Positions 13,239-49,020 of a DNA stretch of 64,000 nucleotides are shown one piece after another. Every line of letters starts with the position of its first letter. Positions within the stretch are counted from its first letter, which is position 1. The notes beneath the pieces are model-generated. The model saw nothing but the letters and a program-made list of their open reading frames with translations. It was not told the origin of the DNA and did not search any database. Source of the stretch: Marchantia polymorpha subsp. ruderalis (taxonomy: Eukaryota > Streptophyta > Marchantiopsida > Marchantiales > Marchantiaceae); contig AP031355.1 in assembly GCA_037833965.1 (NCBI GenBank), positions 12,487,501-12,551,500 of the forward strand. Reading direction: 5' to 3'. The position numbers and the translations under genes were made by a program.

Positions 13239-13894
13239 TAGCCCTCAACCCTAAACTCCTGAAACGGATAAGGAGTCATCGAGTTATGAGTGTAAAAAGT
13301 GGCTGACATGGAAAGGATAAGACGAAGAGAGTCCTTTGGCCTTAAGACTTTGGCTTTGACACCTTCGGCTTAGTAAATGTCGGCGCCAACAAGAAGAAAC
13401 TTCGGCCTTCGTACCACCAATTGGCACAAGTTCACGATGCGGTTAGGATGTTGAGAGACAATAGCAAAGACAGGAGTTCCGCGCAGACATTTCGGGAGAG
13501 TTCATTTTTGAATTGAGAGTTCAACGAGTATCACAAGTGAGCAATTGAGAGCGCAACGATGGTGCAAGTTCTGGAATTTCAGTTGAAGGCATTGAGAGTG
13601 CCGGAGTTCGGATTGAGAGCATTTTGCAATGAGCTAGTAGCTGCAAAGCTCGACTTCTTGCTGTGGGATTGAAATTGGGTTTCTGTGGCAATTGTGAAGG
13701 AGTCGTATGACAGTTGCGTATCAGAGGGCAATGAAATTTGTGGTAACTTTGAGAGTTGGACGACTGAGCAATGAGGTCAAGTCTTCAGGCCGTGTGCAAG
13801 TCAGGCAAGCGATTTACTCTATGATCACCAAAGCGTGAAGGTGACAAAGCTAGAAGTGAAGATGTTCGCAGAGTTGTTCAAGTCACCTCGATCA

Positions 13895-14305
13895 ACCAAG
13901 AATGGCCGGCGGGCGACGGTTACCTTAACCCGCTGAGACTCAATGTGGCATTAGCACTGATGCAGATTCTGAAGCATTCGCGGACAACGTACATGGTGTC
14001 TTGGCAACTAGTATTTGTGGAGCGATTCACTACGCTCAAATTTTGTGGAATGTCGACGAAAGTAATGTCAAGAATAGGTTTGGAGGATGGATGATTTATC
14101 TGTCCCCGTTCTTCACAATTTCTACCAAGCTCTGGGATTGTTGACAGAGGAGGAGAATCAGAAATTCCCTCTCGAGAGGGAGATTGTTGGATTAGAGGAC
14201 GAAGGAGCTCTAGGAGCACACGAAGTTGTCAATGACGATGATGAATTTGAACTTGCGCGGTCTTTGGCTGAAGTTGACATGTCTGATGATGAAATTGAGG
14301 AATGA
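13895..14305 (+). pseudogene. N-terminal domain of coiled-coil element copy 1
   Basis: One frame from about 13895 to 14092 reads a compact domain with LNPLRLNVALALMQILKHSR followed by TTYMVSWQLVFVER. The next part, LHNFYQALGLLTEEENQKF, is in another frame starting at ATG 14087 and runs to a TGA at 14303-14305 after the acidic DMSDDEIEE end. So there is at least one frameshift. The HSRTTYM-SWQ and FYQALG-LTEEE pattern reminds me of plant transposon-type proteins, from memory only. Copy 2 matches from the REIVGLEDEGALG part onward. Confidence 0.5.
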
Positions 14306-14308
14306 CCA

Positions 14309-14491
14309 GTGAAGAGGCGAAGTAAATTGCAGACGACTTTGGCTTCGGAAGTTGTGGGTCAGCGTAGCGGATTGCAGACAAGAAGACCACCACCTGCGCA
14401 GATGAGTATGGCGAGTATGCATGCTCGCAATAAGATGAAGGCACGACGCAAAGTAGAGACCGGAAGTAGTGGACACTATAGAATGCAATGA
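14309..14491 (+). pseudogene. Basic segment of coiled-coil element copy 1
   Basis: The frame begins after a TGA and encodes a Lys/Arg-rich stretch with LASEVVGQRSGLQTRRP and QMSMASMHAR, ending in TGA at 14489-14491. The minus-strand copy at 48.3-48.45 kb has LASEVMGRRAGLRAKRP and QMSTASVHS at the same place. This makes common descent certain at DNA level. Confidence 0.6.
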
Positions 14492-14567
14492 GGCAACGTC
14501 GCAACTTTAGCTGTTTTCGGATGATTGGACTGCACTGGGAGTGCATTAAACAGTAACAGAAGACAAA

Positions 14568-14627
14568 TGACTTTCGACAGAAGAACTTCAGCCACTCCGA
14601 AGGCTGAAGTTCTTCTGTCGAAAGTCA
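14568..14627. repeat. Perfect 26-bp inverted repeat
   Basis: Arms 14568-14593 and 14602-14627 are perfect inverted repeats around the 8-base loop ACTCCGAA. It lies inside coiled-coil element copy 1 between the basic segment and the LINE insertion. Perfect arms in otherwise decayed sequence suggest recent formation or maintenance. It is not a bacterial terminator. Confidence 0.9.
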
Positions 14628-14691
14628 CCCTTTGGATGTGCCTATAAAAAGGCCATTGGCAGAAGTCGAAGAAGAAGAAGATGAATGGTAT

Positions 14692-14840
14692 ATGGTAAAT
14701 AGATCAAGCCCGTGAGACCCAAAGGATCAAAAGGCTAAATAATACAATACAAACAATACAACTCCAACCTAGGAGAGAACCAAAAGAACCTCTTAGCTAG
14801 TGCCAAGAGCACTAGAACAGTGACTAATAACATTCTGATG
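14692..14840 (-). mobile_element. 5'-truncated LINE copy (b) inside coiled-coil element copy 1
   Basis: The reverse complement matches the last part of the LINE at 36.84 kb and runs past the LINE stop codon into the end of its ORF (the TSSALDTS region), with substitutions. It is inserted antisense to the coiled-coil gene. Length is about 150 bp. The GGTAAATAGATCAAG end carries the tail side. Confidence 0.85.
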
Positions 14841-14878
14841 AGATCGAGACAAAGACTTCGGATCAAAGCCTTCGGCCT

Positions 14879-15160
14879 TTGGATCAACTAGCAGCGATTT
14901 GGGGCAAAGATCTTCAACCTTCGGGCGAAACATCTTCGGACGTGCGCAAAGAGTTTGCAAAGTTGGCAGAGTTTACTCCTTCGGGCGTAGGACCTTCGGA
15001 GCCGTTTGCGGCAGAAGTTGGGAAGACAGTTATGAAGCAACCGACGTTGCTTTCGTGTGAGGTCTCTTCGGGTACAGTTGAGTTCGACTGTGGTGATTGG
15101 CCTTCGGCCAGCGAACCGAAGTTGGCAGAGTTTAGTTTGTCAGATCTTCTGAGTGATTGA
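14879..15160 (+). pseudogene. Acidic linker of coiled-coil element copy 1
   Basis: A 93-codon frame contains DLQPSGETSSDV, SGTVEFDCGDWPS and FSLSDLLSD. Copy 2 has DLQPTGKETLDV, SGTIDFDYGKGPS and HNVDDVLSD in the same order. The CTTCGG word recurs in this part of the element, which gives it a distinctive base pattern. The frame stops at 15158-15160; the next homologous stretch (AGSYVELVR) lies downstream with further stops. Confidence 0.6.
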
Positions 15161-15234
15161 ATAGTTTAGTTAGTGAAGTACTTAAATAGAAAGATGATGA
15201 AGTACTAGGTGTCGGCGTCTTCAGCGGGATCCTA

Positions 15235-15836
15235 TGTGGAGTTAGTGCGAAGACAAACAAAGGCGAAGGTGACAACAACTCTTGAGGTGACAGAATGAGT
15301 TGCAAGCTTGACTACTGAGTGTGCGACCATGACACTTACCTTGCAGGAGCGGGAAGAGCAACTTCGTGCAAAGTAGTTGGAGTGCGAAGACCTTCGGTGA
15401 GAGTTAGTCTTTGAGAGGAGCCTTCGTACGTAGAAGGAACTAAAGTGCAAGAGCCTTCGACTTGACATTTGCACAGTGCACAAGGTGACAGTAGAACTTC
15501 GGGTGAATTGGAGGAATCTCAAACACCATTTCAGAGAGAATTTCAACGCGCGGAGGAGCTGACAGTGCATTTGGGGGCACGAGAGCGGTTTGTGGTTGCC
15601 AAATTAGCTCGTTGGGAGAGTCGATTAGCTAATTGCAAGGCTGTCAGATCTTTAGAGATGGAGCGGGGAAGAGAGTTGGATACAGATTGCAGCAGATTGC
15701 AATCTCAATTGTCAGCAGTTGAGTAGCAATTGGTCGCGGCTCAGGCGAAATAGGTGGAGATAGAGGTGATCGTGAGGCAACTTGAACAACAGACAGATGT
15801 CAGTTTGCAAGCTAGAGTAAAATGATGTCTTCGCAG
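15235..15836 (+). pseudogene. Coiled-coil region of element copy 1
   Basis: From about 15235 (VELVRRQTKAKV) onward the sequence encodes heptad-like, charged helices broken by several stops. The best open part is 15469-15726, with DCSRLQSQLSAVE near its end. A TAG follows, then the frame resumes as QLVAAQAK and RQLEQQTDVSLQARV. Copy 2 carries the same blocks intact in 46820-47086. The protein would be a long alpha-helical coiled coil. Confidence 0.6.
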
Positions 15837-15840
15837 TTAT

Positions 15841-16134
15841 GTGGATTGGGTAATCCATACCACGAAGTTGAAAAAATTAGATTCGCTAGAGCGTAAATTG
15901 AGAGGAATGAAAGCCAGCGAAGTTGTAGAACATCAACAGTTAGGTAGAGTAGTTAGTTCTTTCATGTTCGGTTTGGAAGAGACTAGGGAGAATTTAGAGT
16001 TAGAGGTCACATCTGTTCTACGTAGGATAGGAGTAAACAAGAGTTCTTCGGGAGTGGCAACTGTCGCGTCCATGAACGTCGCACTTGATGGGGGCTTGCA
16101 GCTTGCGAGTGATGACTCCGAGTGTTCGTTGTGA
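15841..16134 (+). pseudogene. C-terminal block of coiled-coil element copy 1
   Basis: A 97-codon frame carries LEETRENLELEVTSVLRRIG then SSGVATVA and ends LASDDSECSL. The minus-strand frame 46783-46523 has DETKENLELELSAILSRIG, STGVATVA and LASDASGCLL. The shared stop position marks the true protein C-terminus. Downstream, a run of nine or more G residues and about 500 bp of 3' untranslated sequence also match copy 2. Confidence 0.65.
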
Positions 16135-16819
16135 ATAAAGTGATCCAAGGTTCTTCTTGGGGGGGGGCACTTTTTAGTGAGTTAGTTTTTAGTCTTAAGT
16201 CTGCATTCTTCCGCTGTTTCGTGAATTGTGCGTTTTGTCACAATGCGAGAGTTGCTTCGGTTTGTCGAAGATACCGCATCTGAAATAGAGTATACAACTC
16301 GGGTGATCTGAGTGGTGCATAGTGTAGTTCAGGATTTAAGCAAACTTCTAGATTGGTTGTTTGATGCAGCAAGTTGAGCTTGTAACCTTGGAAAGTTTCT
16401 CTTTGAATATCAAGTGTAGATTCGCTTGTGATTTCTTTGGTGTTTATTGGATGTATTTCAAAAATTTGACATGATTACACCTTGGATTTGTATCACCTTC
16501 GGGTTAATATTTGTTAATATTTGTAGATGCTTCTGGAAGTGACATGTGTATGAGAAGTAAAACTCGTAATTAGAATGTTTAACGTGACATTATTTGAATC
16601 TCTGGTATTAATTCTGTCCTCGTGAGATCGGATTTGTACCATTATGCTCCATTATGGTATTTATGTATTATTACAAACGTGAAGTATATTTATATAGGGA
16701 GTAAAACATATTTCATGTTGCATTGTTTAACAAATACTATCGGAAAGCTTAGCTTGTGCCACAATCACTCACCGACAATTTGTGTTAGTTGATGTGTAGT
16801 ATCCAAACATTACCTGAAA

Positions 16820-17560
16820 ACTTTCCGGGCTGCCATGGTGAATTGTAAAATGCCCCGTTTTTTGCAGGCTGTTGTGACCGGGGAGGTTTGGTTGGGCTCT
16901 GCCGCTGAGTAAAGAGCCACGTTTTTTTTTTGGTATATATAAGGATGTGGAGATGTGGTTTCTTCCTTACTCTCATTAACAGCAAGTTGGATTCTGCCAG
17001 GCTCTTGGTGATTGCTACTGCGCATGATCTAGCCATTGCAGCACTGGCATCCGCCACCGGAGGCATTTGTGGAGGCCATATCAACCCTAGGCCACGTTTT
17101 CGGTGATGGTGGTTAGGATTGTTCCCGTCGTGAAAGGTTTAATGTATAACATGCTTAGCTCTAAAGTGCCATCGCTGGTACAGGGCTACTCAGCGGTATC
17201 TCCCAGGCTCGATATAATGGCCTTGTAGCTCACTCTGTAAGCCAGAATATCTCCGAGCTTGAAGCAGTTATGTTCGGGCTTTTCCTGACTTTCGACCTCG
17301 TGTTCGTAATCTTTGGGACGGCCGTGGACTCACGAGGCCCTGAGAATATTGCGCCAATTGCCATCGTTGTTCAGAGTTCTCGTGGATCACTTTATGGAGT
17401 TCCGTTCACCGGTGCTTCCATGAATCCGACTCTGACATTGGGACCTGCAGTCTTGGAGAATGAGTGGGCTGGATTTAGAGCGTATCTGTTTGGTCAGCTG
17501 GTCGGGGCTGCTCGTGCGGAAGTTGCTTACACTCAGTTCTTTCAAGCTGGTAGGATTCAG
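16820..17560 (+). pseudogene. Tonoplast intrinsic protein (aquaporin) pseudogene
   Basis: The middle of a plant MIP channel is recognisable in several frames. At 17002-17088 the frame reads AHDLAIAALASATGG then GGHINP, the first half-helix. The first NPA box is hit by an indel at about 17089-17093, so the frame shifts before TFSVMVV. Another shift precedes the AIAGTGLL helix at 17168. From there an open frame reads through LEAVMFGLFLTFDLVFVIFG, TAVDSRGPENIAPIAI and FTGASMNP; the second NPA is NPT. LEAVM-type and TAVD-type motifs fit the TIP group. The N-terminal part (16.82-16.95 kb) is only weakly visible. The frame runs on to 17686 without aquaporin likeness after about 17560. Three defects make a working channel very unlikely. 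Confidence 0.75.
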
Positions 17561-17689
17561 GACGAAGAGGTAATGTGCACGAAAATCCATTCCATGGAGA
17601 ATCCCATGTTAGAGCACTCCCGCAAGTGCGACAAGTCTGTGTCTGGTATCTCACGTCATGACAGCCTCAACATCTTCATGGTCTAAGGC

Positions 17690-20600
17690 CAATAACTTTG
17701 AAGCCTCAAAGTTCAGGTAATGTTTTGTACCGCTATCGCCTGATGATGATGATATATTACTTGCTTCCTGTTTCGTCACACTCCAAGATCAACTATCTCT
17801 GCATTGCCAACCTGTCTTGAATACAAAACCGGGTTTATCTTGGAGAAATTCAGCTCAGTTACCCGTTTAACCGAAAAAATAATCTGATTGACAGTGTAAA
17901 TACCATTCTAGACAGGGGACTAGGGACCAGGTTAGGATGTAGGACAGGTTCAAATTCACCCCGTATCAATTTCTTCCCACCATATAGCCCTATTTTCGAA
18001 CGTAATCAATCCACAAGTACATATCTGAAATGACGCGAAATTCGAAAAACATCAAGTTTTAGATTAGTATGTGAATCAATTCGTGCTAATAATAGCAAGA
18101 GACGGAACAGTAGTAAAGAAGAAAATCTCTCCTTGTCTTTCTATTCAGAGTTGCTTAGAGCCTTGAGATCAGTGATTTTGTTATTTGTCTCGAAGTGCTT
18201 ATCCAATGTGTGCTGAAAACTTTTAATTCATAACATTTATTCGAATTTAAGCACCCATCGATCTAAGACCTGAAGTAGCGTAGTTTTAGTTGTAGTCGGT
18301 CCACAACCCTCGTTACCATTTTCCGATAGATGCTTGAGAGCAACTGGATTCTCCAATTTGATTTCTAGAAAACAGAAAGCTGAAACTCTAGACTGGAGGA
18401 GAACAGAAGATCTCGAGGTGTGATTGATTTTATCTTCTCATTTGTACGTTCATGTAAATTTGTCAACAATCAAACAGCTGCAATGCTTTCATGTGGAAGT
18501 TGAGCAGAGAAAATACACAAATTATATATTACAATACTATCTTATAACCAAAAGACACTCGCCCAGAAAGAGGCTCTTCATCATCAAATCAGGAATTTCC
18601 AGTTATAAGGAAGACTGATGGTCTCAGATCTCCTGGCGAATCGATAGATACGGACAGAGTAGCCCTTCACATGACTGAAAGCTGAAAGGAACTTGAAAGC
18701 TGGTTCGCACACAGACAAAATAAATTTCCCAGAAATTTTCTCCACTTCATTACTACATTCACACATTGGCTGGAAGACTCGATGCACAAACGGAGGGTCG
18801 ACTGTCTCAAAAAACGTGCCAAGCCATGACCATCATACCTGGAGCTCCGCTGACGACGATGCCATCTTTTGTTACGAGGCCGATACGCTGAAAAGATCAT
18901 AAGCTTACTAGCGGTAGCTGGTAACCATGTTTGACAGACAAATAAACATTGGTTGTTTGTGGGGATAACGATTTGACATAAGGCAGTCATATCGCGATGT
19001 TACCCTGCACGATGCGCATAACCATGGAACCAGCACACCAGCAGAATCCACTCCAAGCGCGAGCGAGGCATTGAGCTTGGAGCAATATGAGCGATAAAGA
19101 GGCACTGCGACAGTCCATGAGACTTTGAGGCACAACAAACGCCCTCGGAGCGGAGGGCACACTTTAGTGGGAAGCGAGAATCATACGCTGTCACCTCTAG
19201 GGAGCAGGGATTAGGACAGCAGTAGCATTCGGAAGAGGTGGATCTGTGTCTGGACATGTGGCTTGACCGACCTGGATTTTGCAGGACCTCGTAGGATCCT
19301 ACCGTTGAAATGCTAAAGTTGGAGGTCTCCAAAAGTACAAGTACACAATGCAGTACAATCAAACAGTTCAAAGATTCGCCTTTCACCTTCGCACCTTTCT
19401 CGTGTTCGCTGTACTTCTCACGCTCCTACGTTAGTTTACACCGCAGCTGCCCTGGATTCAGGCTACTCTTTTCCTCGCCCTTTTTTCCCATACCTTTCTT
19501 CGTCGGGCCACCTGAACATGGTTATTTCGGCGTTGTGCACTAGTTACTTGGCTTCCATTGGATTTCCACGTTTAACATATTGGGTTTATAGTGCGCTGAA
19601 GCTCTTCTCTACGCCGTACTTCGTGAGGCCGCTTCGATCACTGAGCCCCAGCCATAGTTCAACCTATGGCCGCAAATATGCTCTCTGTGAGACTTCAGAA
19701 TGCCGACTCAAACTCAATCCCAATCCGACAACTACATGTTCTACTCGGAGATGAATCGTTTCTGAAGCTTGTCGCTGAACTTGGTTGTCCTTCTCGATCC
19801 CAAATACTTTTAAAAATGTTGAAACCAATCGGTAAGAGATAAAGACTTGTGTCGTTACGTAGCTTTAATAGTTAGCGGTTTACGGGAGTTCTAAGCTTGC
19901 CTTTACAACGAATCAGTTCCCAACCCGCCAATTAATGAATTATCATCTTTCATAGAATTTTCTTGCAAAAATATTGAGTTATTTGGAACGTAAACAAACA
20001 ATGCCAACAATTCGTTCTTACATCTGTTGCCTCTTATTGTAGCAAACATATCAAAACTTCTACCTCTTACATATCATTGCGACGAACTCCGCATACTGCA
20101 AATCCATACCTTGCATTTCCAAAGTGATATGAAAAAATGGTTGCAGCAGAATATTTTCATTATTTGCTCTTAAACTACGAAGAGGACAACGTTAGCTAAG
20201 GATTTGTCATACAGACAAATGTATTTGCCCTCCACTTTTCATTCACAAGGATTGCTACCCAAACTCCATGCTCCACGAGTCAGGTTGTACTAAGAGAAAA
20301 GATGCAACTCACAAGCCAAACTTGCAAATTCGTTCAAGTCTTGGGAACCTAAACCTTTTTCGTTAATATGTGCCTTTCCTTAGTATTAGTTATGTTGTTC
20401 AGTTACCTTTCCACCAAGATTCTCGCTTGCCCATTACATTTCCATGAAACAGTTCCTATAGAAATACTATTGGTTAAAATCAATCACAGCGTGATTTGGT
20501 CCACCACGAAACTGGATCCCTACAGTGATGGAAAGTGCGGGACGCTATTGACATTGTCAGAATTAACTCAATTCATGTCCGCAGCACATCAAACTCCGAA

Positions 20601-21350
20601 ACGGATTATACAGTATCTTATGCTCCAGATCCAGAATCCACTTCGTTACGGCAGAATCGGTCGAGCATTCGTGGCGGACTTGCCCTGTTTCCCTTCTCTA
20701 CCAAAGGGTGCACGATCAGAGTGACCACGGGGAAAGAAAGAGTGCAAAAAGGGAGCAGATGGCCAGAAGGTCCAGCTGAGGCAGGGCAGAGCCTGACAGA
20801 CAAACAGAGAGGAGGATGAGACTTTACGGGCCATGAGCAGCAGCAGCAGCTGCTAAACGTCAGTTCAGATCAGGGAGGGCTGCGTGCGCCGTTGTACTCC
20901 CGTGGCTACTCTCAAGCTGTACTTGTACTTGCACTGACCGAGAGCATAAACTGCAAGATTCCATTCCGGGTAAAGCCTTGACGTCGGGGATTCTTTATGG
21001 CCCCATGGCATGGACCTGCCAGCACGCAGCAGCAGCAGGCAGCAGAGGCAGTACGACACTCCTCTACTGCGGCCGTGTACAGATTCTTGTACTACCATGT
21101 TTACTGAACGTCTACGACCAAAATGTCGACAGATTACTCCCCGAGCGCGATCGAGACCATAGCTTGCTCTATCGGATGGATAGGTGGACGGATGTACTCA
21201 GGGGAAATAAAATGGATAATGCTGCTGCTACTGCTGATGAGAGCAGAGTGGCGAAGAAAGAATCAGAATACAAGCGGAAATCAACGGAAACTTAGATTCG
21301 TTCCAAGCCCGGGTTATGAATGATTGGTTGAATATACAAGGTTCAGAAAG
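17690..21350. other. Stretch without a supported gene
   Basis: Short ORFs occur on both strands. The longer ones (19386-19000 minus with a GTG start, and 20368-20724 plus) show no domain and no supporting splice pattern. A CAG-type triplet run lies at about 20833-20850. I see nothing else. Confidence 0.4.
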
Positions 21351-21638
21351 TTCAGACGTAGTGGCAGGAAAAGATGATGATTCGAGGCTCCGGGAAAGCG
21401 AGCGTCGATTCTGCGCTTCACTTCGTATTTTGTGTAGTACTGTGACAGTACTGCGGATCTGTTCCACGGGGGAAGGTGGAGCTCGGAGGGGATGTATGTT
21501 CTTCTAGGAGACTTGGGTGGTGCAACGGGTGGACTGATTGCATTGAGGCGGTGAAATGTCGTGGGCTGTGTGGTGAGGTGGTGCCTGGCACTCACTGGCG
21601 TTGTGTGATTGCAGTAACGAACCAAAGTGCACTTGACG

Positions 21639-21689
21639 TTGTACAGCGCTATGCACTTTCATTGTGCACTACCATTCTGTGCAGTACAA
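21639..21689. ncRNA. Conserved hairpin, left copy
   Basis: The sequence can fold as TTGTAC/GTACAA, an A-A mismatch, GCGC/GTGC with one G-T pair, an asymmetric bulge, and TGCAC/GTGCA closed by a 7-base loop. The right copy at 25234-25289 folds in the same way although loop and bulge differ. Retained pairing in a diverged duplication suggests selection on structure, but two sequences are weak proof. Transcription is not shown. The stem is shorter than a typical plant microRNA precursor. Confidence 0.35.
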
Positions 21690-22721: not shown

Positions 22722-22742
22722 TTTCTTCTTCTTCTTCTTCTT
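22722..22742. repeat. TTC triplet microsatellite
   Basis: About six consecutive TTC triplets follow a pyrimidine-rich lead-in in non-coding sequence. Confidence 0.8.
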
Positions 22743-25043: not shown

Positions 25044-25070
25044 GCCGGAGTACTATGACAGTACTCCGGC
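25044..25070. repeat. Perfect 11-bp inverted repeat
   Basis: GCCGGAGTACT and its reverse complement flank a 5-base ATGAC loop. The left duplication copy keeps only the inner AGTACT pairs. Confidence 0.85.
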
Positions 25071-28305: not shown

Positions 28306-30074
28306 TCAAGGTCTTGTAGGAACATTTCCTGTGAATTGATTATTGGAAAGGTCAAGAAACTGGAGGAATTCGTAGCCATTCCCTTGTAGCTCTCCCGGAA
28401 CGGTGCCGTTAAGCTGATTGTCTGAAAGATCTAGGTAGTTGATGCCGGGGTTTAAGACGCTGCCTATGTTCGAAGGCAGAGGGCCGGAGAGCTTATTGAA
28501 GGACAAGTCAAGGATGAAAGCAGTTCTGAAAGTTGTGAAAAAGCTCGAGGTGATGGGCCCATACAGCGCACAGTTGTGAAGATCCAAGACCTGCAGTGGC
28601 GAGTCCACTCCCTGAAGCGCAGGAGGTAACAAAGCGTTGAGAGGATTATTGGAAAAGTTCAGCTCGATGGCCAACTCCAACAGCTTGTCTGGAATGGGAC
28701 CGGTGAGCTTGTTGTCGGAAATGTCCAGAGTCAGAAGCTTATTCAGGCCTGTCAGCCACGAAGGTACAGGGCCCTGGAGAGAAGCGGATCTCAACCTCAG
28801 GAAGAGCAGATTCTCACTCCCCTCTGCTGGCATGCTACCACTGGAGCTGGAAGTGAGCTTGTTGTACGAGAGGTCAACACTGGTAAGTGCAGCGAGCGAG
28901 AGGGGGAAATCACCTGTCAAATAGTTGTTAGAGAAGTCGATGGATCCCGTCGAGAAATTGCCAATGGCTGCAGGAATCAGTCCGCTGAGATAGTTGGAAG
29001 AGAAATTGAGAATCCCTGGCCCCTTGAGATTTCCCAGACTCCCGGGAATCGGGCCGTAGAGATAGTTCTTGCCCAACTTCACCCTGCTAAGAACTGGAGC
29101 TCTGCCTAGCGAAGATGGAATTGGTCCACTAAAGTAGTTGTCGCTCAGATCCAAAGATAGAAGCGAGTTGAGCTGCCAGAGGAAGTCTGGGACACGACCT
29201 TTGAAGTAATTTCCATTGAAATCGAGATCTTGCAGGCGTTGTAACGATTTCATGGTGTCAGGAATGCCTCCTTTGAACTTGTTATTACTGAGGTCTAGAT
29301 TTATCAAATTCGAAAGTTGGCCGACAGACTTCGGAATGGTCCCGTAAAAATTGTTTCCCCTCAGGCTCAGCTCCGTTAGTGCTGTAAGATCACCGATGTT
29401 GGAGAAGAGCTGTCCTGTGAACTTGTTGGAAGCCAGATATAACGACTGGATCTTCTGCCACGAAGTTACCATACATGAAGGAAGAAAACCGTCGAGTTGA
29501 TTATTTTCCAGATTCAGAGATTCAAGGTTGGTGAGATTGCAGAACTCGCTCGGTAGATGGCCAGATATGGAGTTGAGGATTGTTTGCAAACTCGTCAACT
29601 TGGAGAGTCTTCCCAGCTCTTTAGGCAATGGCCCTTGAATGTTGCACTGTTGCACTGTGAGGGTCATGAGATTGGTGAGACTGGACCATTGAGAAGGGAT
29701 GGGACCGTCGAACAGAATGTCGGCGAGCTTGAGATGGGTGAGGGTTAAGATACGGGCCAACGGAACTCCTGCTTGCCCTGCTGGAACTGTCTGTTTGCGC
29801 TTGGGGTTGGTGCTCTCTCCTTCACGAGGAGGCGCCAAAAATTCCACCTGCACAACGCGTCCGGTGTTGACGTCGCAGGTGATGCCAATCCACTCACAGC
29901 AGTTCGCTGCACTGACCCAACGTGAAAAAACTCCGTCTGGATCGTCAAACTGATCTATAAACTCAAGCACGGCTTCTTTATCTTGGACATTGCAGATTTG
30001 GCGTAGCTCAACCTTGGCACCAGCAAACAGACGAGCAAAATGATGGCCCACTGAGCACCTCTGAGGTTCTGCAT
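28306..30074 (-). CDS. Secreted leucine-rich-repeat protein, with frame break after the signal peptide
   Basis: The long minus-strand frame ends at 28306 and carries an LRRNT_2 cap (DKEAVLEFIDQFDDPDGVFS, then NCCEWIGITCD) followed by about 19-20 plant-type LRRs with LxxLxLxxNxLxGxIP spacing. It stops after FTGNVPTRP with no transmembrane helix or kinase. It resembles extracellular LRR proteins of the plant-defence or polygalacturonase-inhibitor type. The long frame upstream has only a GTG start at 30240. In another frame, ATG at 30074 opens a classic signal peptide (MQNLRGAQ, WAIILLVCLLVP, RLSYA). It runs into the LRRNT frame only if one base is added or two removed at about 30000-30010. No intron fits. 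Either the gene is recently broken or one base is missing in the assembly. I take 30074 as the original start. Confidence 0.85.
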
Positions 30075-30299
30075 GTCGAGTTACAACTACAGCCGCCTCT
30101 AGATCGCAGAAATCGGATAGTTTTCTATTTGCTGTAGTGGAAGCTCTTGACTTGATTGCTCTACATCCTGCGCACAGAATAGACATATTAGCACCTTTCT
30201 CTGCCAGGCCTGTAGGACGCTCAATGCATCGGCATTTCACCGAACTAATCTATGAGCCACTAGTGCGACAAGCCTGGCTAAAGATTTGCACAGGTAAAT

Positions 30300-34874: not shown

Positions 34875-36838
34875 GAAGTTGAAGTGATGACTCAACTCAG
34901 ACAATTGGCAAATGGTAAATGTGAGGATTTGGATGGGCTTTCCATTGAACTTCTCAAGTGAGGAGGAGATGCTATTGGGCCTATATTCACGAAAGTGTTA
35001 GAGGATGCTGCTATTCATGGCTTTCCTTCATCTTGGTCTCTACGTAAGATTGTTCCTATTCACAAATCTGGGAGCAAGGCCTTGGTGACAAACTATCGCA
35101 CTATCATGGTGGGTAGTATTTTTGCCAAGTTATTTGGCAAATTGGTGGAGTCAAAGTTGAGCACATGGGCTGAATCTTGTCAGAGGAGAGCTTAGTTCCA
35201 AGCTGGTTTTTGTCCTACATTCAACACTATAGACCATATCTTGATTTTACGTGTTCTATGGGAGAAATCCAAGGGTAATGGAAAAGCTTTGTTTTGTGCC
35301 TTCATTGATTTCAAGAAAGCTTTTGACACAGTACCGCGTGAGCTTTTATGGCAAAGATTGCAAACCATTGGAGTACCATCAGATCTCTTAGCAGCGGTGG
35401 CTGCATTATACCACTCAGTTCGGGCCAAGATCAACACTTCTCAAACCAAAGATATTATCAGCACCATTGGAGTCATTCAAGGTTGTACTCTCTCTCCCAC
35501 TCTCTTTGGAGTTTTCATAGATGATATAGAAAGGTGGTTGGAGGATTGTGATAGCGAAGGTGTTAAACTTTCAGGCTTTGTCATCAAAGCTCTTTTGTAT
35601 GCAGATGATGTCATATTACTAGCACGTGATGCCACTAGTTTACAAAAACACCTTGACATTTTGGCTAGCTTTTGTACTCAAAATCAGATGGAAGTCAATT
35701 TGGAGAAGTCCAAAGTCATTCTTGTGGGCACTAGATCCAAGCTCTCTATCTGTTACAAAGGATTAGAGTTGGAACAAGTGAAAAGTTACAAATATTTGGG
35801 CATTGATTTCTCATCTGATTATAGTTGGGCACTTTGTGTGCAAAAGAGGGTAGAAGCTGGTTTCAAAGCTCTATATTCATTGCTAAATAGATGTAGAGGA
35901 GCTCATCTAGTGTCTTGGAGTCTTAGGAAATTCTTATTCAGGAGCTTAATGTTTCCCGTTATCTTATATGGAACACAAGTGTGGGATCCTGGTTGTAAGA
36001 AGACAGGTTGACAGCGTTTGGAGAGGGTGCAAAAGATCTTCTTACAAGAAGAATTGAGTGTGAGGACCCAAACTTCTTATGCAATTCTTCTTGCGGAAAC
36101 AGGTTGTCTACCTCTTGAGGCTGAAGCTCTCTTTTTGACTATCACTTACGTCAAAAGAGTGAGATCTCGTGATGCTTCTCGACTTCCTCTTGAAGCTTTG
36201 CGTGCCACACTTCCCAAGGGTTGGTTTGCAGATGTGGTGACTTGGTCTTTGAGGTGAAATGTGACGGAACTCGATTGGAATTTGCAACCTATTGCCCTAC
36301 GCGAGCATATTAAGGAGGAATTTCTCAGCATTATGTGGAGCACACGAGGCACCAAGATGCAGTTTTATCAACTTCATGTGAATCCTATGCTTGTTTATTG
36401 TGAGCAAGGATATTTACTTGCAGAGATATCTACTTTTTTACGTCATATTATTGCTAGACATAGAACTGGATCTCATAGTCTTGGGATTGAAGAAGGACGT
36501 TGGTTGAACATTGATAGGAGTGAACGTATTTGTAGGCTATGTGATGGAAGAAAAGTTGAGGATGAAGAGTATGTATTTCTTACTTGTACTAGGTATGTAG
36601 AGATTAGAGTGGCTCATAAAATTGTAGTTGAGAATTTTTATTCTTTGCTTGAGCTTGAACCTTATGATTTAGGTTGTTACATTACAGATCTTATTAGTTA
36701 CCATTCTAGTGCTTTGGACACTAGTTAGGGGGTTCTTTTGGTTCTCTCCTTGTTTGGAGTTGGATTCTTTGTATTGTGTTTTTTAGCCTTTTAACCCTTT
36801 GGGTCCCACGGGCTTGATCTATTTACCATTTACCATTA
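34875..36838 (+). mobile_element. 5'-truncated LINE (non-LTR retrotransposon) with reverse transcriptase
   Basis: A single reading frame runs from about 34875 to the stop at 36728, interrupted by four nonsense codons (TGA near 34962, TAG at 35193, TGA at 36009, TGA at 36255). All pieces stay in the same frame. Reverse transcriptase motifs are visible: ALFCAFIDFKKAFDTV, GVIQGCTLSPTLFG, LLYADDVILLA (catalytic YADD), NLEKSKV and YKYLGIDFS. The C-terminus has a Cys-rich motif (ICRLCDGRKVEDEEYVFLTC). The endonuclease and the first fingers part are missing. The 3' untranslated end carries GGGTCCCACGGGCTTGAT and closes with two to three TTTACCA-type repeats instead of poly(A). No RNase H was seen. 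The copy is immobile. Confidence 0.92.
35241..36011 (+). pseudogene. Reverse transcriptase core of the LINE
   Basis: This longest open piece (256 codons) holds the palm and catalytic YADD at about residues 117-120, preceded by FIDFKKAFDTV. Because every interruption of the ORF is a nonsense substitution rather than an indel, decay is probably recent or driven by C-to-T changes. Methylation would explain such changes, but that is inference. Confidence 0.9.
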
Positions 36839-37021: not shown

Positions 37022-37179
37022 AAGATGGGACTCGGCAGACAGTGTACCACGATGGAAGAGGTCCCGTCTTCTTTGCAAGCAAGCAAGACCTGGTCTATCC
37101 GATTTACGAGGTCAAAGACATCATTGAATGCTTCTTTCGAGAATGTTTTCTTTCCTCCAAATTCAAGGATCAAGCACTC

Positions 37180-40050: not shown

Positions 40051-40057
40051 TTAGTGC

Positions 40058-40513: not shown

Positions 40514-40614
40514 TGTTGCCTCAGCTGTAATTACTGGTGATCGGACAAGAGACGGGACCTTCGATATTCGAGGCTCTGAAATTGTAAGGGTGAGCTTCTA
40601 ACCTTTCCACATCG

Positions 40615-40622
40615 CTTATATA
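40615..40622 (-). promoter_or_regulatory. TATA box of the small secreted-protein gene
   Basis: The minus strand reads TATATAAG here. With transcription starting about 30 bp downstream, the 5' UTR would be some 70-80 nt to ATG 40513. Confidence 0.6.
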
Positions 40623-40629
40623 GACCCTC

Positions 40630-43600
40630 CGAGCTTAGCATATGCACTCGGTGATGATAATGGTCAATGGTAAATGGTGATGAGATCTCCAGGTTATGCA
40701 TATGCAAACGCTAGACGACCTAGAAAAGACGACGATTGCATGATATCCTGTCATCGCACAGTGGAGGGCCTCACGGCGAGTAAGTAGCAACCAGTCCGCT
40801 CAGAGACCCAAACGGAACACGACCCGTCGTGTACTCCAAAGTCAACTATTGCAGGGAGTTTCCTCCTTTCGACTATACCTCTGCACGTTGAGAAGGCACG
40901 TCCAAGCAATACCAATGTCTATACATATCGTAGTTTGCAAGCTTGGCACGCAGTGAGTGCTGAATCCACAAAAATTTTCAGGATCCCCTGCATTCTTCAC
41001 AGTAGCCCCCTAGCCCCCTCGACCTGGAAAATTTTGTTCGGCTGGGTACAACCAGTGCAGGAGGCTGGGCCAGCCTCTGTGGGTGGAGACGCCAGAAGAT
41101 TTACAGATGACGTTATCAGCAGCTTAGCAAATGGAATTATTCGTGGAGTCAGGCAGAGTCTAGTCATAAGCAATTCGAATCATCATTCGGATTTATATAC
41201 ATCCAGACGAGGGCCTTATCAGATTGGCTTGTCCCTGCTGTTCTCTATGTTCGTGAGCAAACCGAGACCGAAATTCCATAAGACGTGGACAATGTCAACG
41301 TCTACTGTGTTTTGGGCAAGGTGCCTTAAGCACAATAATTAATCACATTCTACCTGATGAATCTCGCCGCAACCGCAGATGGCCGGCCCAGTTAGCTCAT
41401 GATAGTACAATGACGTTCAGTAATGAGGGGGAATCTTCAATGATTAGGCAGAGGACCTCCAAGACAGAACGTGCCGCTGTTGTGCATCATCGGTTCAAGC
41501 CTCTATTATTCCATATATTATTTTAGAACGAGCTCTAAGGCGAAATTTCTCCCCTCTGTGATGCGCTTTAAGCCACACTTGTCTTCTCATGAGCTGCGAT
41601 AATCGGAAGTCTCACCTTCTAAAGTAACAAACGGCCGGTTGAAGGAGAGAAGACTCTAGAGCCCGAGCTAAAGGTCGGATTATTAAGGCGGATGCTAGAG
41701 CCACTGACGTTTTAGTCGCATCTGCCTTCCTTGAGACGAAGGTCATGGGGTCCCTTTCTCTCACTGTTCTGTGCGTCTTCATCATTGTTGACTACTGCTT
41801 TTTCATCGCATCAGCTGTAATGTTCCTCTATGATGACGGACTCTGATCTGATGTCTTGTTTTGTTTGTTATGTCCTGATCGATCTGCCTCGGCCGGGATC
41901 GGTCACCGCCTGCCATGATGTACACAAATCGAGCAGGGATGGAGGACTGGAGAATGTCAGATCTAAGGAGAGGGAAGTCGACGACAGATCTGTCGATACT
42001 TATTCCACATCAGCATCAGATTATCCTCTAGTAGCTTCGAGGTAGCAGAGTTGACAGTCTATTCTCACTATGATGCAGAATGGACATAGAGTTTACAAGG
42101 TGCCAGAAGGAACCTAGGTGCTGACAGACTACGGAGAACTGTAACTTTGGTACGGTATGATAAGGGAATGTTGAGATACACTACATCAATATAATGTCTC
42201 CGAGCGTCGTTTTGATGCCCCGTCGTTCTTTTTCAATGATGGAGCACGATGACAGATATGTGCTGATCACCTGTAGAGTTGCGGACACCCCTGGCGGGAA
42301 TAGAGCCGAGGTATAGAAGTGCCCTTCACAATGATGGGAGAAAGACAAAACTGTATAGACTCATAGATCTTGACAGGACAACAGGCTCTGTCTGCTGTGA
42401 TAGACGTGACAGTGAAAAATTCTCAATCTTGATGAGTTGCTGTCAATAAATTTGGTGATATCATGCTCTCTCAATTGGCCGCAAATCAACATTGTATTTG
42501 TTGAACAATTTTAGCTTTATATATCAACTGGTAAGCTATTTGCACTTGAGGTCCTCTGGCTGCCACTCTTGAATCTTTTGCTGCTTTTCCTCAAGCTTTG
42601 ATTCCCTATCAAACGAGAAGCCAACCAAATGATCCAATATCGTCAGTTCTTGTCGTCTCCTTGGAATGGTCATCTACAGGAGACAGAACAGAAGAGAGAC
42701 AGAACAGAAGGGCTGAATCGATCCCGCTGGTCGTATTAGGTACCGCGACAAGAACAGATTTCATGACCAAAACTCGCATGCTAGTGGGCAGACAGTTGTT
42801 TCATGACTCTGAGGGATAGCAGAGTGCAACATTGGTTCTGATGAATAGTAGCTTCACAATTATGAACTTACTGTCTTATCTACAGTACTCTAGCCTCAAA
42901 GCAGCGGATCTGAATGCCTTGGAGTGTGACAGTTTAACCATATCTTGAACATCTGATACAATAGCCTGGCTGCCGAGAAACTACTCGGTGTTTCAACTGA
43001 TGGAAAACCACATCTGGAACTCAATGCTTCATCCATACTCTTCTGAAATGCAGTAATTCAAAGGCGGAAAACCGAAGAATCTCCGTCGGTAAAGCCACTC
43101 TCATCTGACAACGATCTAGAGCTGCCCAGCATCTCTAAGAAGGTCTCAACCGAGAGCTACCCAGCATACTGTAGCGGTTTCCATGATCCTTCATGATTGG
43201 CTAGACGAGAAGAGGAATCCGAACATGAGTTGCTAAGTGTGCTCCTTCATATAAACTATGAATTGTATTTAACAGTATGTTACAACAGACTTCATCCGAG
43301 GGCTTACATTGTGTCAGCTGGCCTTACGCACTTTTGAAGATGGTCTAAAGTCTTTCCCTCTGTATTACAAAAGTTCCAGCGTTTTCTGTCCCGTTCTCTT
43401 CTTTGTTGCAGAGAGCTCAAGGAAACCAGCTCTTCTGAAAGGTGTTACCAACTTTTCTTTGGATTCTCATCCCTCAGGCCCTATCATCATTCAACTTCCC
43501 AGGTACGAAGCTGTAAATCATAAAATAAGATTCTTAGGAGTCGAAGAGACTCAAGATCTGATCACGCGTGAAAACCTAATGGTGCCAGATGAGTGCTGGT

Positions 43601-43980
43601 GTTCGATATATGTGCTTTACTGCAATCGTTGATACTTTCCTTCCATTCTAATTGAATTGTCTGGATTGATGTGACAAGCAAGAATAAAGCAGCGTTGTGG
43701 CAACAGGAGACAAATTAGAGTCAATCGAAATATCCGATATACTAAAGGTAAGCTAAACTATGTTGTATCCCGACTTGAGCCCATTCAGGAAAGGAGTTCA
43801 GTTCAGGTGTGAGAAAACTGAACACTGTTGCTACTCTGCAATTGTACCTATTGGCGACGACCCGGGTGATCGCAAAATTCTTGCGGAAAAATCGAATTAT
43901 TATTTATTTTGGCCCCCAATACCAAATAGGGGAAAATTAGTCGAAAATTAGACGCCACGTACCCAATTACCTTCGTATCA
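40630..43980. other. Stretch without a supported gene
   Basis: ORFs of up to 135 codons (40935-41342) show no domain. A 15-bp direct repeat (GAGACAGAACAGAAG-like) lies near 42680-42710, and a GAGCTGCCCAGCAT near-repeat near 43121-43170. A fragment with GGTAAATGG at about 40668-40677 may be a LINE-tail remnant. Confidence 0.4.
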
Positions 43981-43985
43981 CTTTG

Positions 43986-44313
43986 AAAAATCACTGTTTG
44001 TGGCTTCCGCTATGAGCAAGCTATCTGAGGAATATCGTCTCATCGAGGTCAAGGGTAAACTATGTCGAAAAATCACTGTTTGTGGCTTCCGCTATGAGCA
44101 AGCTATCTGAGGAATATCGTCTCATCGAGGTCAAGGGTAAACTATGTCGAAAAATCACTGTTTGTGGCTTCCGCTATGAGCAAGCTATCTGAGGAATATC
44201 GTCTCATCGAGGTCAAGGGTAAACTATGTCGAAAAATCACTGTTTGTGGCTTCCGCCATCAGCAAGCTATCTGAGGAATATGTTCTCATCCAGGTCAAGG
44301 GTAAACTATGTCG
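43986..44313. repeat. Four tandem copies of an 82-bp unit
   Basis: Units start at 43986, 44068, 44150 and 44232, exactly 82 bp apart. The first three are nearly identical. The fourth differs at several bases and passes without a break into unique sequence with an open frame (SKLSEEYVLIQVKGKLCR, then WEFNNNDLSTIDKHKD). The last unit therefore looks like the ancestral, once-coding sequence, with the other units copied upstream. Because 82 is not a multiple of three, the expansion destroys any reading frame across the array. Confidence 0.95.
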
Positions 44314-44319
44314 ATGGGA

Positions 44320-45480
44320 ATTTAATAACAATGACCTTAGTACCATCGACAAACATAAAGACAATGTACCTCTCGCCATGAATAGCATCATAATATACCT
44401 TTTCAAGTTTGGTCTTCATGTGGTATAACCCACGATGACTAGATCAATTACTCCCTGCTCAACCTTAAGCATCACCGTCATAACCATCATCTTCAAGATC
44501 AATGTCAACCGTTAGCTCGGACAATGCAAGCCTAATAGCAAGCCATTCTTTGCTGAAGAGGCGCAAGCATGGTGGAGTCAGCGGATCTCAGCAATGTGTG
44601 TCATTTCGGAACACCACGAAAACTGATCCAAAACATAACACAAAGTTCTAGGTGAATCGGCTGTGGAAGAAATTAGATTCTTGCGAAAAAGCATGAAGAC
44701 GCATTATGGAGTACCTGAATGGAAGCAAGGGGAGGAAATTGTGTTGGACTTGATGCAAGGGGAGGAGATTGTGTTGGACTTGATGCAACAGGGATTATGG
44801 GATATTGTCATTCGGGCTATACTTCTTATTGGTGTCCGTCTCCTCATAAGGTTGAGCAAGGTATTGTAGGAAGTATGTGATACTCTACGTCGAAAGTCAC
44901 AAGTTCCTAAACATGCTCTCAACGCTGATGATTTTCAAACCTTCATTGAAGAATGTCAAACGTGGGAACTAGAGTACGGATTTCCATGTGCACACCGAAG
45001 GTCACGCCAGTATCTGATGAGCAGAATGTCACTTTGACTAAACTTTGGACCCGTTTTAGGAACAAGATAAAGAGCATGAATCGAAGGGTGATTAGTTTCA
45101 GTCGTTGGACCTAGTACTGTGATCTTCATGCTCTTGGAGTGCGCTTGACAAGAATCGCTGAGAACGTCTTTCATGCATGTGTTTGAATTTAAATTAAGTT
45201 GAATAGTGAAGATCTCACCGATGTTGAGCGCGAACAATTACTTCTAGAGAAGAAAATGCATCTATCCGCTATTATTGATCAACTGCGTTTAATGTCAAAG
45301 TTTATGAAGAACTATGTAGGTAGACATACATCATCACAATCAATGCCTGAGACTAATATCAACAATTTGTATGAAGATACACTTCATGATATGTTTGTTG
45401 AACATAAGACTCTATTTGAAATACAGGTCTAGATTGAAAATTTTGATCGCAACTTTACCCTTACTTTTTATGGGCAATCT
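44320..45480 (+). pseudogene. Decayed coding-like fragments of unknown origin
   Basis: Short open pieces follow one another on the plus strand: YLFKFGLHVV ending near 44428, 44663-44869 (EEIRFLRKSMKTHYGVPEWK and a duplicated EEIVLDLMQ), then 45199-45432 (LTDVEREQLLLEKKMHLSAI). Helical, charged peptides in succession suggest a broken gene or transposon protein. No family is recognisable. Confidence 0.3.
44725..44784 (+). repeat. In-frame 30-bp tandem duplication
   Basis: Units 44725-44754 and 44755-44784 differ at one base and duplicate the ten residues of QGEEIVLDLM in frame. Confidence 0.9.
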
Positions 45481-46522
45481 CGTACATCGACGGATTACTT
45501 TAATTCTAATTTGATGATGTAAAATTTCATTATAGCCGACATCATCAACAATGTGAACAACGTTATTATTTACGACAAATGTTGTCGTGGGATTTATTTG
45601 AGGCTTGAGACTACAATGTAGTTAGTGTTTTGTGTGAGTATAGGTTAGGATGAAAAATCATAAATAGTGTCAATGTTATGTGTGTTCACTGTAATAAGAG
45701 TTGAGTGTAGTATGTACTTCCAAGTTATACTACAAAGTTGTACTACGTGTTGTACTAGTATCAAATGTACTATATACTTTCAAGTTGTACTTCTCATATA
45801 CTATGTTTTTTTAAAGCTTTCTTGAAAAACTAAATAGTAAAGAATAGGTGGCTAATTCAGCTCAATCTCAACTTTGCATTTCCACAGGTTGATGGTTTGA
45901 GTGTTTTCGCGTTTCTTTTAGGATTTGTGTGTGTTTTGAGATTTCTTTGTTTATCTAAGTGACATTGTCAAGTCATTTAATAATTGTCTATTGTAATAAT
46001 AGATTATTATCAAAATGGAGCATAATGGTAAAGATCTCATTCCACGAAGATAAAAACAACATCAAAGATTCAAATACTATCACAAATTAACATTCTATTG
46101 AAGAGTTTCACTTCTCAGACACATGTCACTCCTAGAAACATCTGCAATTGCTAAGACCAAAGGCGACACAAATGAAAGGTGAAATCACATTCAAATTTTG
46201 AAATTCATTTAATATACAACACACAATTCGCAAGCGACTCTGAAATTGATATTCATCAGGTAAATTTCCCAAGATTACACGCTCAGCCGGCTGCACCGAG
46301 CATCCAATGTACAAATTTGCTTAAATCTTGAGCTACACTATGCACCACTCACAACGTCCAAATTGTACTCTCTACTTCAAATGCGATATCTTCAACAAAC
46401 TGAATCAACTCGCGCACTGCGACAAAACGCACAACTCGCAAACGTGTGGAGGAATGCATACTGTAAACTAAACACTGACTCCTGGAAAAGACTCTCAAAG
46501 GCAGAGCCCTGGACCTCTTTAC

Positions 46523-46783
46523 TCACAACAAACACCCGGAGGCATCACTCGCTAGCTGCGAGCTCCTAACAGTTGAAACACCAGTTGCGACAGTTGCCAC
46601 ACCAGTAGAGTTCTTGTCTATTCCTATCCTACTCAAAATTGCTGACAATTCTAACTCTAGATTCTCCTTCGTCTCATCTAAATTGAAATTGACCATTTTA
46701 CCTGACTGTCGATGTTTTGTAGCTCCAATGGCTCCAAATTTATTCACTCGATGCTTCAGCTCGTCCAATTTCATCCAATTCAT
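46523..46783 (-). pseudogene. C-terminal block of coiled-coil element copy 2
   Basis: The 86-codon frame begins MNWMKLDELKHRVNKFG and holds DETKENLELELSAILSRIG and STGVATVA before the stop. It matches 15841-16134. No frame break is seen inside it. Confidence 0.65.
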
Positions 46784-46819
46784 TTTCTGTATCTCCCATT
46801 CTACATAATGGTGAAGACA

Positions 46820-47086
46820 TCACTCTACCCTTGTAAGCAAACCAGCATCCGTATGTTGTTCCAACTGTTGGACTGTCGCTTCCGTCTCCATCAATTTTGC
46901 TCGAGCCGCGATCAACTGCTCCTCAACTGCAGACAGTTGAAAACGCAATCTGCTACAATTCGCGTCCAATTTCTTCCTAAGCTCTAACTCCGAAGTCTGG
47001 ACAGCTTTGCAATCAGTCAATTCCTTCGCCTTAAGAGCCAATTCGATAGCATGCGATTGATTTCGTGCTGCCAGAGTTGTCTTCAA
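46820..47086 (-). pseudogene. Coiled-coil region of element copy 2
   Basis: An 88-codon frame of charged heptads includes LTDCKAVQTSELELRKKLD, NCSRLRFQLSAVEEQL and LMETEATVQQLEQHTD. It stops just before the C-terminal block, where copy 1 also stops. This is the clearest view of the long helical coiled coil the ancestral gene encoded. Confidence 0.65.
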
Positions 47087-47578
47087 CTCCCCCGAGCGCG
47101 TGAATTCTCTCTCAAATCTTTCAAATCTCTCAAATCTTCAAATCTCTCTCAAATGTTTGAAGTTGGATTGTTTGTATTGTGTTTTTTAGCCTTTTGACCC
47201 TTTGGGTCCCACGGGCTTGATCTATTTACCATTTACCATTTACCATTATCTTCCGAGACAATTTCAATTTGTTCAAAGTTCCACCGTCACCTTCTGCGCA
47301 TTGTTGATGTCAAGCCGAAGGTCCTTGCACTCTAGCTCCTTCGGCGTTCAAAGATTCTCCTTCAGCCGAGGGCTTACTCAGCATGCGATTGATTTTGTGC
47401 CGCCAGAGTTGTCTTTAGCTCCCCGCGCGCTTGAATTCTCTCTCAAATCCCTTCTGAGACAATTCCAATTTGTCTCAAAGTTCCACCGTCACCTTTTGCG
47501 CATTGCTGATGTCAACCCGAAAGTCCTTGCACTCTAGCTCCTTTGGCGTACAAAGATTCTCCTCAGCCGAGTGCTTAC
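47049..47578 (-). repeat. Internal direct duplication in element copy 2
   Basis: A unit of about 200 bp starting GCATGCGATTGATTT occurs at 47381-47578 and again at 47049-47380. The second unit is split by the LINE tail at 47158-47247 and an adjacent CAAATCTCT-rich filler. Matching blocks include TTGAATTCTCTCTCAAAT, GTTCCACCGTCACCTT and CTTGCACTCTAGCTCCTT. The split shows that the LINE tail landed after the duplication formed or in one unit only. Confidence 0.75.
47158..47247 (+). mobile_element. 5'-truncated LINE 3' tail (copy c)
   Basis: This near-identical match to the last 90 bp of the LINE at 36.84 kb ends in three ACCATTT repeats. It is antisense to coiled-coil element copy 2, as the LINE piece in copy 1 is to that copy. 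Confidence 0.9.
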
Positions 47579-47779
47579 TCCAAAGTTCTGAACACTTCAA
47601 CTCCTTCACCCAAAGTTGCACAAGATAGCCGTCACAGTCCGGCACTCAGAAGTTAAGCTCGCCATTCTTTCTACTACCTCCGTAGCTGCTGTCACCTTCG
47701 CCTTCGTCCTACTACGCACTAATTCTACATATGATCCTGCTAACTCTGGCTCCGCGTACTTCGCCATCTTTCCATCTAA

Positions 47780-48166
47780 TTATCTGAGTAAGGAAACTAT
47801 CTTATCACTCAAAACATCATCTACATTATGTTCGGCCGTCTTCGGTTCCTCAGTAGAAGGCCCTTTGCCGTAGTCAAAATCGATTGTACCCGAAAACACT
47901 TGACGCGAAGGCATCACCGATTGCTCCGCGATAGTCTTTTCCACTTCCGCCACCACTCAATCTAGAAGTTCTTTGACCAAATTTGGCTCCACGGCCGGCT
48001 CTTCCAACTCTACATGCACATCCAAAGTTTCCTTACCCGTAGGTTGAAGATCTTCAGACGAATTTGCTGATGGTTGCTTCGAAGGCCGAAGACATTGACC
48101 CGAAGTCTCTGTCTCGGTCTCATCATCTCGTTCTCCTTCTTCCTTCAACGGACCATTCATGGGCAC
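47780..48166 (-). pseudogene. Acidic linker of coiled-coil element copy 2
   Basis: It reads SSEDLQPTGKETLDVHVELE, then a TAG at 47959-47957, and continues VEKTIAEQSVMPSRQVFSG and TIDFDYGKGPSTEEP to DDVLSDK. It aligns with 14879-15160 of copy 1. A highly acidic lead (ERDDETETETSG) precedes it. Confidence 0.6.
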
Positions 48167-48269
48167 GTCCGAAGGTCGCCACTATGGAGGCCAAAGGCTC
48201 TTTGCCGAAGGCCATTCGTCTTCTATTCTCGCATCTCCCACTTCCAATTCAACCCATTCCACCGAAGTC

Positions 48270-48625
48270 ACTTGATGTTGCGAAGTTGCTCCGCTACACT
48301 CTGTACTATACTCTTACTCTATCCATTGGTGTTGTGCCTTCATCATACTACAAGAATGCACGCTCGCTGTACTCATCTGCGTAGAAACTGGTCTTTTGGC
48401 CCGCAATCCTGCACGTCGACCCATCACCTCCGAAGCCAAAGACATTTTTAATTTCCGTCACTTCTTTGCTAGTCGTTCCTAAATGTCTTCGTCCGACTTG
48501 TCCACTTCGGCCGAAGGTGGTGCAGGTTTAATGTTGTTCTCCTTGCTAGCAACTTCATTCCCTCCCAACACTCCTTCGTTGTTTGCAATCTCTCTTTCAT
48601 GTAAATCTGTCATTGACTTTCTATG
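48270..48625 (-). pseudogene. Basic segment and linker of coiled-coil element copy 2
   Basis: It reads REIANNEGVLGGNEVASKEN, SAEVDKSDEDI, a stop, then LASEVMGRRAGLRAKRP and QMSTASVHS. Copy 1 has the same order with a stop at nearly the same place. The shared position of that stop may mean the two frames were joined by splicing in the ancestral gene. Confidence 0.55.
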
Positions 48626-49020
48626 ACAAGGTCATTTTGTTGTATTTGATTTCCTTCCATTCGCACAATCCGGTTGATCGCGTCGACGCATGATGCTGGA
48701 ATAAGATCCGCATCATGAACATGTACTCTCCTGCTGCTGCTCTTGATTGTACCTGAGCTGAACGAAATCAAATCGATGTTTTGCGACTTCCTAGATCATC
48801 GATCTTCCAAACAACTTTTTTTACGGATTAGACTCCATTGCTATCGAAGTACTTCAAACCCATGTCGACCAACTACATCGGTAATTATTTCTTTGAAATT
48901 GATGAGGGTTTTGTGTTCATGTGCCATTTCGTGATCACGCCGGATAGCGACATGGAGTTAGTTGCGACAGTTTTTCTATCGAATATTGATTCGATTCGCA
49001 AGTATGTCTTGTTCTCAAGA

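Follow-up and report, generated by a model that had tools for sequence, protein, structure and literature searches.

Long terminal repeats (LTRs) are usually treated as regulatory DNA. In mouse mammary tumour virus (MMTV), the sag gene is encoded by the LTR. TR-GAG and LARD elements are built from two LTRs around an internal part. In plant LTR retrotransposons, additional open reading frames (aORFs) lie in the internal region, mostly between pol and the 3' LTR, in sense or antisense orientation, according to the parts of PMC7264820 that deal with them. The aORFs named in those parts include Grande gene23, Retand ORF4 and PvRetro13 ORF2, and Transposase_28 is named for Retand ORF4 (PMC7264820). 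No description of an open reading frame (ORF) inside a plant LTR was found in the portion of the open-licence literature that was covered. In this study, a stretch of 64,000 nt of AP031355.1 from Marchantia polymorpha subsp. ruderalis (the window) was analysed, and the genome of 241.5 Mb in 9 contigs (C1, C2 and so on) was searched. The window contains two inverted copies of a repeated unit. Both are very probably decayed LTRs; the LTR retrotransposon family to which they would belong is present in very high numbers in this genome, and its LTR carries an ORF.

The family resembled plant LTR retrotransposons in its late-internal integrase, its 5-bp target-site duplication (TSD) and a primer site starting with TGGCGCCG. 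Like the plant aORFs, in some of which SMC-like parts are mentioned in the consulted parts of PMC7264820, the Marchantia ORF would be an extra conserved protein of unknown role. It was different from the aORFs described there, which are internal, because it lies in sense orientation inside the LTR (PMC7264820). Neither Transposase_28 nor any other Pfam family was significant with pieces of the Marchantia ORF. The likeness to MMTV sag is that a protein gene within the LTR is doubled at each insertion; MMTV is an animal retrovirus, unlike the present family, and no sequence relation is claimed. TR-GAG and LARD elements share the one-ORF, non-autonomous look, whereas the Marchantia ORF lies within a single LTR.

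Comparison of the window with itself gave three collinear blocks on opposite strands. The block at 45991-47016 matched 16676-15629 (minus; 71.8% over 1,052 bp, E 1e-152), the one at 47417-48125 matched 15560-14836 (66.6% over 727 bp), and the one at 48199-48516 matched 14584-14262 (69.4% over 323 bp). The likeness of copy 1 (plus strand) and copy 2 (minus strand) is thus far above chance. This was in agreement with the original prediction, made from the sequence letters, that two inverted copies share the same block order and the sequence 3' of the ORF, put there at about 500 bp and measured here as roughly 540 bp. The copies are real, but the predicted start of copy 1 at 13.88 kb was 960 bp too late; its true start is 12920 and its end 16675. 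The homology of copy 2 covers 45992-48598; its 3' end at 45992 is intact, about 1.28 kb is missing from the 5' part, and no homology was found past 48598. The features of the two copies are as follows.

12915 to 12919, no strand: left TSD of copy 1, AACGT, perfect (5/5)
12920 to 16675, plus strand: copy 1, solo LTR (TGTGGTAAC...GTATTATTACA), 3,756 bp with short inserts, TSD on both sides
13450 to 16134, plus strand: decayed ORF in copy 1, stop TGA at 16132-16134, 5' limit approximate, placed by homology to the open frames of L041 and L042
14568 to 14627, no strand: near-perfect 60-bp palindrome in copy 1, self-complementarity 92%, at the left margin of the stretch absent from relatives
14684 to 14836, plus strand: 153-bp insertion in copy 1, a short dispersed repeat
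16134 to 16165, plus strand: AATAAAG directly behind the stop of copy 1, then CCAAGG..CTTGG
16135 to 16675, plus strand: LTR 3' part behind the ORF in copy 1
16676 to 16680, no strand: right TSD of copy 1, AACGT, perfect (5/5)
45992 to 48598, minus strand: copy 2, 5'-truncated LTR with ORF remnants and 3' part, 3' end ...CTATTATTACA at 45992
47154 to 47253, minus strand: insertion of the short dispersed repeat into copy 2

The relatives lacked about 250 bp of copy 1 (approximately 14588-14836); the palindrome overlaps the left edge of this stretch and the 153-bp repeat fills its right part. Copy 2 was rearranged internally, with 47250-47379 repeating 47451-47580. The short dispersed repeat measures about 80-150 bp and carries an (ATGGTAA)n-like end; it has four copies in the window (14684-14836, 36688-36837, 47154-47253 and 4087-4178), two of which sit within the two LTRs. 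It is possibly a short interspersed nuclear element (SINE)-like or other small non-autonomous element.

The genome search revealed many relatives. With copy 1 as the query, 40 of 2,455 first-look candidates were scored and yielded 75 matching pieces; with copy 2, 40 of 2,366 yielded 79. Twenty places with their 10-kb surroundings and the two window copies were then compared all against all. The homology began and ended at two constant points, separated by about 3.56 kb in complete copies, and the flanks were mostly unrelated, except for other repeats common to some loci. Alignment of 15 5' ends and 19 3' ends gave TGTGGTAAC and GTTATTACA, or variants of them, with TG...CA at the termini. Both ends could be placed by these motifs in 14 copies, and four or five of the five flanking bases agreed in 11 of them, six being perfect, including copy 1. 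The exceptions were L021, L026 and L035. At 19 shifted registers, such agreement was seen in 0-2 of the 14 copies. In the relative L041, an outer unit with the perfect TSD GATTA contains a nested, ORF-less unit of 2,396 bp with the near-TSD GCAGT/GCATT. The original prediction had named sharp common ends and target duplications as the sign of mobility, and a total of two copies, or copies lacking a common boundary, as the sign of ordinary gene duplication; the result therefore points to a mobile unit.

TG...CA ends together with a 5-bp duplication form the signature of a retroviral-type integrase. Since no direct terminal repeat was present within copy 1, the combination of such ends and such a TSD suits one LTR. 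Copy 1, which has a perfect target duplication, is accordingly a solo LTR, and copy 2 is a truncated LTR. No primer-site-like stretch was found behind copy 1. The original prediction had reported neither an LTR nor a terminal repeat, which is explained by the whole unit being itself one LTR with no second copy flanking it.

The machinery was traced through a related subfamily, that of the L041 nested unit. Its 3' end, TGGTGGGTTATTACA, occurred at 6,166 places with at most one mismatch (control 24), and its 5' end at 3,017 places (control 4). Two junctions read in letters showed a 22-bp spacer followed by TGGCGCCGCTGCCGGGGA, a primer site starting with TGGCGCCG that we take to be of the tRNA-Asp type. 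Furthermore, the junction TTATTACA-N(10-30)-TGGCGCCG was present at 1,245 places genome-wide (control 1). For the integrase domain PF00665, the best 150 matches of 2,873 candidates were placed, and 34 of them were within range of the first 100 listed junctions (C1, C2 and the start of C3). A junction lay about 4.9 kb upstream on the same strand in 25 of the 34, and on the opposite strand in none. The distance was 4,870-4,903 bp on the plus strand and 5,144-5,162 bp on the minus strand, the latter including the 0.3-kb domain. On C1, 6 of 13 integrase matches were placed by position between two same-strand 3' ends with a spacing of 9.4-10.7 kb. These sets of integrase, junction and 3' ends are full LTR retrotransposons by geometry, as seen in the related subfamily rather than in the window type. 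In addition, the distances from 5' to 3' ends on C1 clustered at 2.25, 3.68 and 4.6-5.1 kb. Taken from spacings with one assumed LTR length, the LTRs of full elements would measure about 2.0, 3.7 and 5.0 kb. An integrase starting about 4.9 kb behind the 5' LTR suits the gypsy order of reverse transcriptase, RNase H and integrase, and Ty3/gypsy, Tat/Athila group, is a candidate class.

One LTR of the window type was linked directly to this machinery. It lies at C2:1330821-1331946 (minus), is 74% identical to copy 2 and reaches query base 2,649, the final position of the LTR. At this exact end it is joined to the primer-site junction C2:1330794-1330828 on the same strand, and the ORF motif is found at C2:1333742, 2.9 kb upstream of that junction, also on the same strand. 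The original prediction had suggested a non-autonomous mobile gene or a captured gene moved by other machinery. The unit is indeed mobile and its machinery lies outside the copies, but it is neither an independent element nor a free captured gene. A gene carried by other machinery is an apt description insofar as the ORF, being located inside the LTR, is retained by each solo LTR.

Two further observations concern the distribution of these sequences. Integrase matches formed head-to-tail series with steps of about 10.66 or 7.68 kb at C4:3411747-3433061, C5:8912991-8928349 and C2:15269906-15280555, which are perhaps tandem elements with common LTRs. The 5.59-Mb contig C1 holds many of the LTR matches, and three similar places on it (2434446, 2840815 and 3183328) suggest triplicated stretches; C1 might perhaps be a sex chromosome or another non-recombining contig, which is a guess.

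The ORF is enclosed by the TGTGG and TTACA ends of the TSD-bearing unit and does not lie in an internal region. It consists, in sense orientation, of an N-terminal domain (about 13560-14300 in copy 1), acidic and basic linkers and a helix-rich C-terminal part. In the window copies it was broken by many stops and frameshifts. Open frames of 530 aa and 673 aa were present in relatives, and in L041 the frame was split by one stop into 338 and 410 aa. Four N-terminal pieces of other copies were 41-48% identical to that of L041 and had a conserved block in common with it, and, with up to one mismatch allowed, the N-terminal motif TYM..WQVGF was found at 1,184 places (control 0). In a frame-blind nucleotide alignment of L041 with its L028 relative, the first, second and third codon positions were mismatched in 29, 23 and 40% of cases (p 4e-11). 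Because of this bias, the protein was probably under constraint during the multiplication of the family, as far as the sequences tell. The ratio of nonsynonymous to synonymous substitution (dN/dS) was undefined for most pairs because the synonymous sites were saturated, and the tblastn pieces used for it favour conserved stretches.

The C-terminal part contained 37-41% K/E/R/Q and few P/G in two copies, so that it is helix-rich by composition. A heptad periodicity was significant in the last 190 aa of L041 (reached by 3 of 1,000 shuffles) but not in L040 (550 of 1,000), and the long coiled coil of the original prediction therefore found support in one copy and none in the other. The profile searches brought no family assignment. 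Seven ORF pieces, the L042 N-terminal region, both L041 frames and the alignment A1 gave no significant Pfam match (best E 0.036), and the profile search of the PDB with the ORF protein gave 0 matches. A likeness to a plant 'transposon protein' domain was unsupported by the Pfam scans, and no claim is made of it.

The AATAAAG at the stop was kept in 14 of 19 aligned window-type copies; the two L041 units did not align there. It is a candidate poly(A) signal or TATA-like box, and we prefer to place the ORF in U3 rather than in U5. Moreover, eight LTRs whose 3' part was 93-95% like the L041 nested unit were not ORF-less: in six of the eight, the C-terminal ORF block occupied the expected position, and one of these six also had the N-terminal domain. 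ORF-bearing relatives of the L041 nested LTR thus exist, outside proven full elements.

Several results weigh against the two copies being LTRs with an ORF. Among 139 listed match rows, 1 was joined to any of the first 100 listed exact primer-site junctions; at least one further row, C1:864045, is not among the 139 and has no listed junction nearby, and several rows represent one copy. The primer site was behind none of the 19 window-type 3' ends examined. This scarcity fits old solo LTRs, the window-type units being nearly always solo or broken and the full element seen in one decayed case. The exact ORF motif was found at 0 of 47 integrase loci (0.5-6 kb downstream and 5-10.5 kb upstream; first 100 exact motif places), so that in the well-kept full elements at these 47 loci the ORF may be missing or altered. 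Furthermore, 9 of the 34 integrase matches had no listed junction, the LTR pairing in full elements rests on positions, and full elements are recognised by their integrase and junctions. The control stretch behind the ORF was also weakly biased by codon position (20, 19 and 30%, p 0.04).

Other explanations of the unit were compared with these data. Segmental duplication of an ordinary host gene family would account for the long ORF, the codon constraint and the lack of a recognised mobile-element protein inside the unit, but not for very many copies with identical boundaries, 5-bp TSDs and mostly unrelated flanks. Gene duplication was ruled out by the boundaries and TSDs, and its probability is practically negligible. 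A DNA transposon with short terminal inverted repeats (TIRs; TGTRRTAAC...), a 5-bp TSD and a transposase acting in trans would explain the short imperfect inverted ends TGTGGTAAC / TGTAATAAC of the unit, and the ORF-less copies of 2.3-2.4 kb would be its deletion derivatives; the nested 2,396-bp unit of L041 and the clustering of C1 end distances at 2.25, 3.68 and 4.6-5.1 kb are compatible with it. No Pfam family was significant in the sense ORF pieces scanned. A homologous 3' end followed 1,245 times by a tRNA-primer-like site, with the integrase about 4.9 kb further on in 25 of 34 cases, is not in agreement with a TIR transposon, which is very unlikely. Also very unlikely is a non-autonomous gag-only element (TR-GAG or LARD-like) whose own LTRs have decayed and of which the unit is the whole. 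Its one-ORF content is matched, and in L041, L037 and L038 an LTR 3' end just before the ORF sequence resembles an LTR plus ORF. The L041 case is, however, a nested unit (near-TSD GCAGT/GCATT) in an outer unit with a perfect TSD, so that the 1-kb direct repeat of L041 is not an LTR pair around the ORF; the L037 and L038 junctions may be of either form. Copy 1 has no direct terminal repeat, though its closest relatives are still 77-79% alike and an element starts out with two identical LTRs when it inserts. In addition, a primer site directly follows the 3' end of one window-type unit. The TIR and gag-only explanations were set aside after the TSD, primer-site and integrase results.

It is also conceivable, though unlikely, that the unit is an LTR as proposed and its ORF, whether captured or open by chance, is a passenger with no role in the element. 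The lack of a significant Pfam or PDB match, the existence of ORF-less LTR derivatives and the 47 integrase loci without the exact ORF motif agree with this. On the other side, open frames of 530 aa and 673 aa persist, and proteins merely 41-48% identical retain the same blocks with constrained codon positions. The long frames, the kept blocks and the codon constraint therefore point to selection on the protein over many copying rounds. When ORF matches were paired as the two LTRs of one element, no clear excess was seen by eye, this not being a computed comparison.

If the copies are LTRs of a retrotransposon, the elements would have been copied via RNA, with their own integrase inserting them. 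LTR-LTR recombination would then have deleted the internal part, leaving solo LTRs such as copy 1, and copy 2 would additionally have lost its 5' third. The ORF product may be an accessory protein. As an accessory gene of the retrotransposon, the ORF might be expressed from the LTR and act in trans on the element's own cycle. Its place within the LTR would give two copies per insertion and leave a whole copy in each solo LTR. We tentatively suggest, as a possibility, that the lineage moved an accessory gene into its LTR and that the resulting large, dispersed gene pool outlasts the element machinery; some open copies could act on remaining elements or be adopted by the host. An LTR with a constrained protein gene could explain gene-like repeats of unknown class. 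The family offers a case, open to testing, in which each solo LTR retains an accessory gene, and is otherwise ordinary decayed retrotransposon sequence.

Other features were also observed in the window. An open frame of 256 aa at 35241-36011 matched the reverse transcriptase family PF00078 (E 6e-28), and it lies between the two LTR copies by position only. A Major intrinsic protein (aquaporin) frame (PF00230, E 2e-22) was found at 17165-17686, about 490 bp past copy 1, and a 644-aa protein with leucine-rich repeats and an LRRNT_2 match at 28306-30240. In addition, a tandem repeat with an 82-bp unit occupied 43985-44314 in about four copies, which were 94-98% alike, and a tRNA-His gene was located at 11422-11507.

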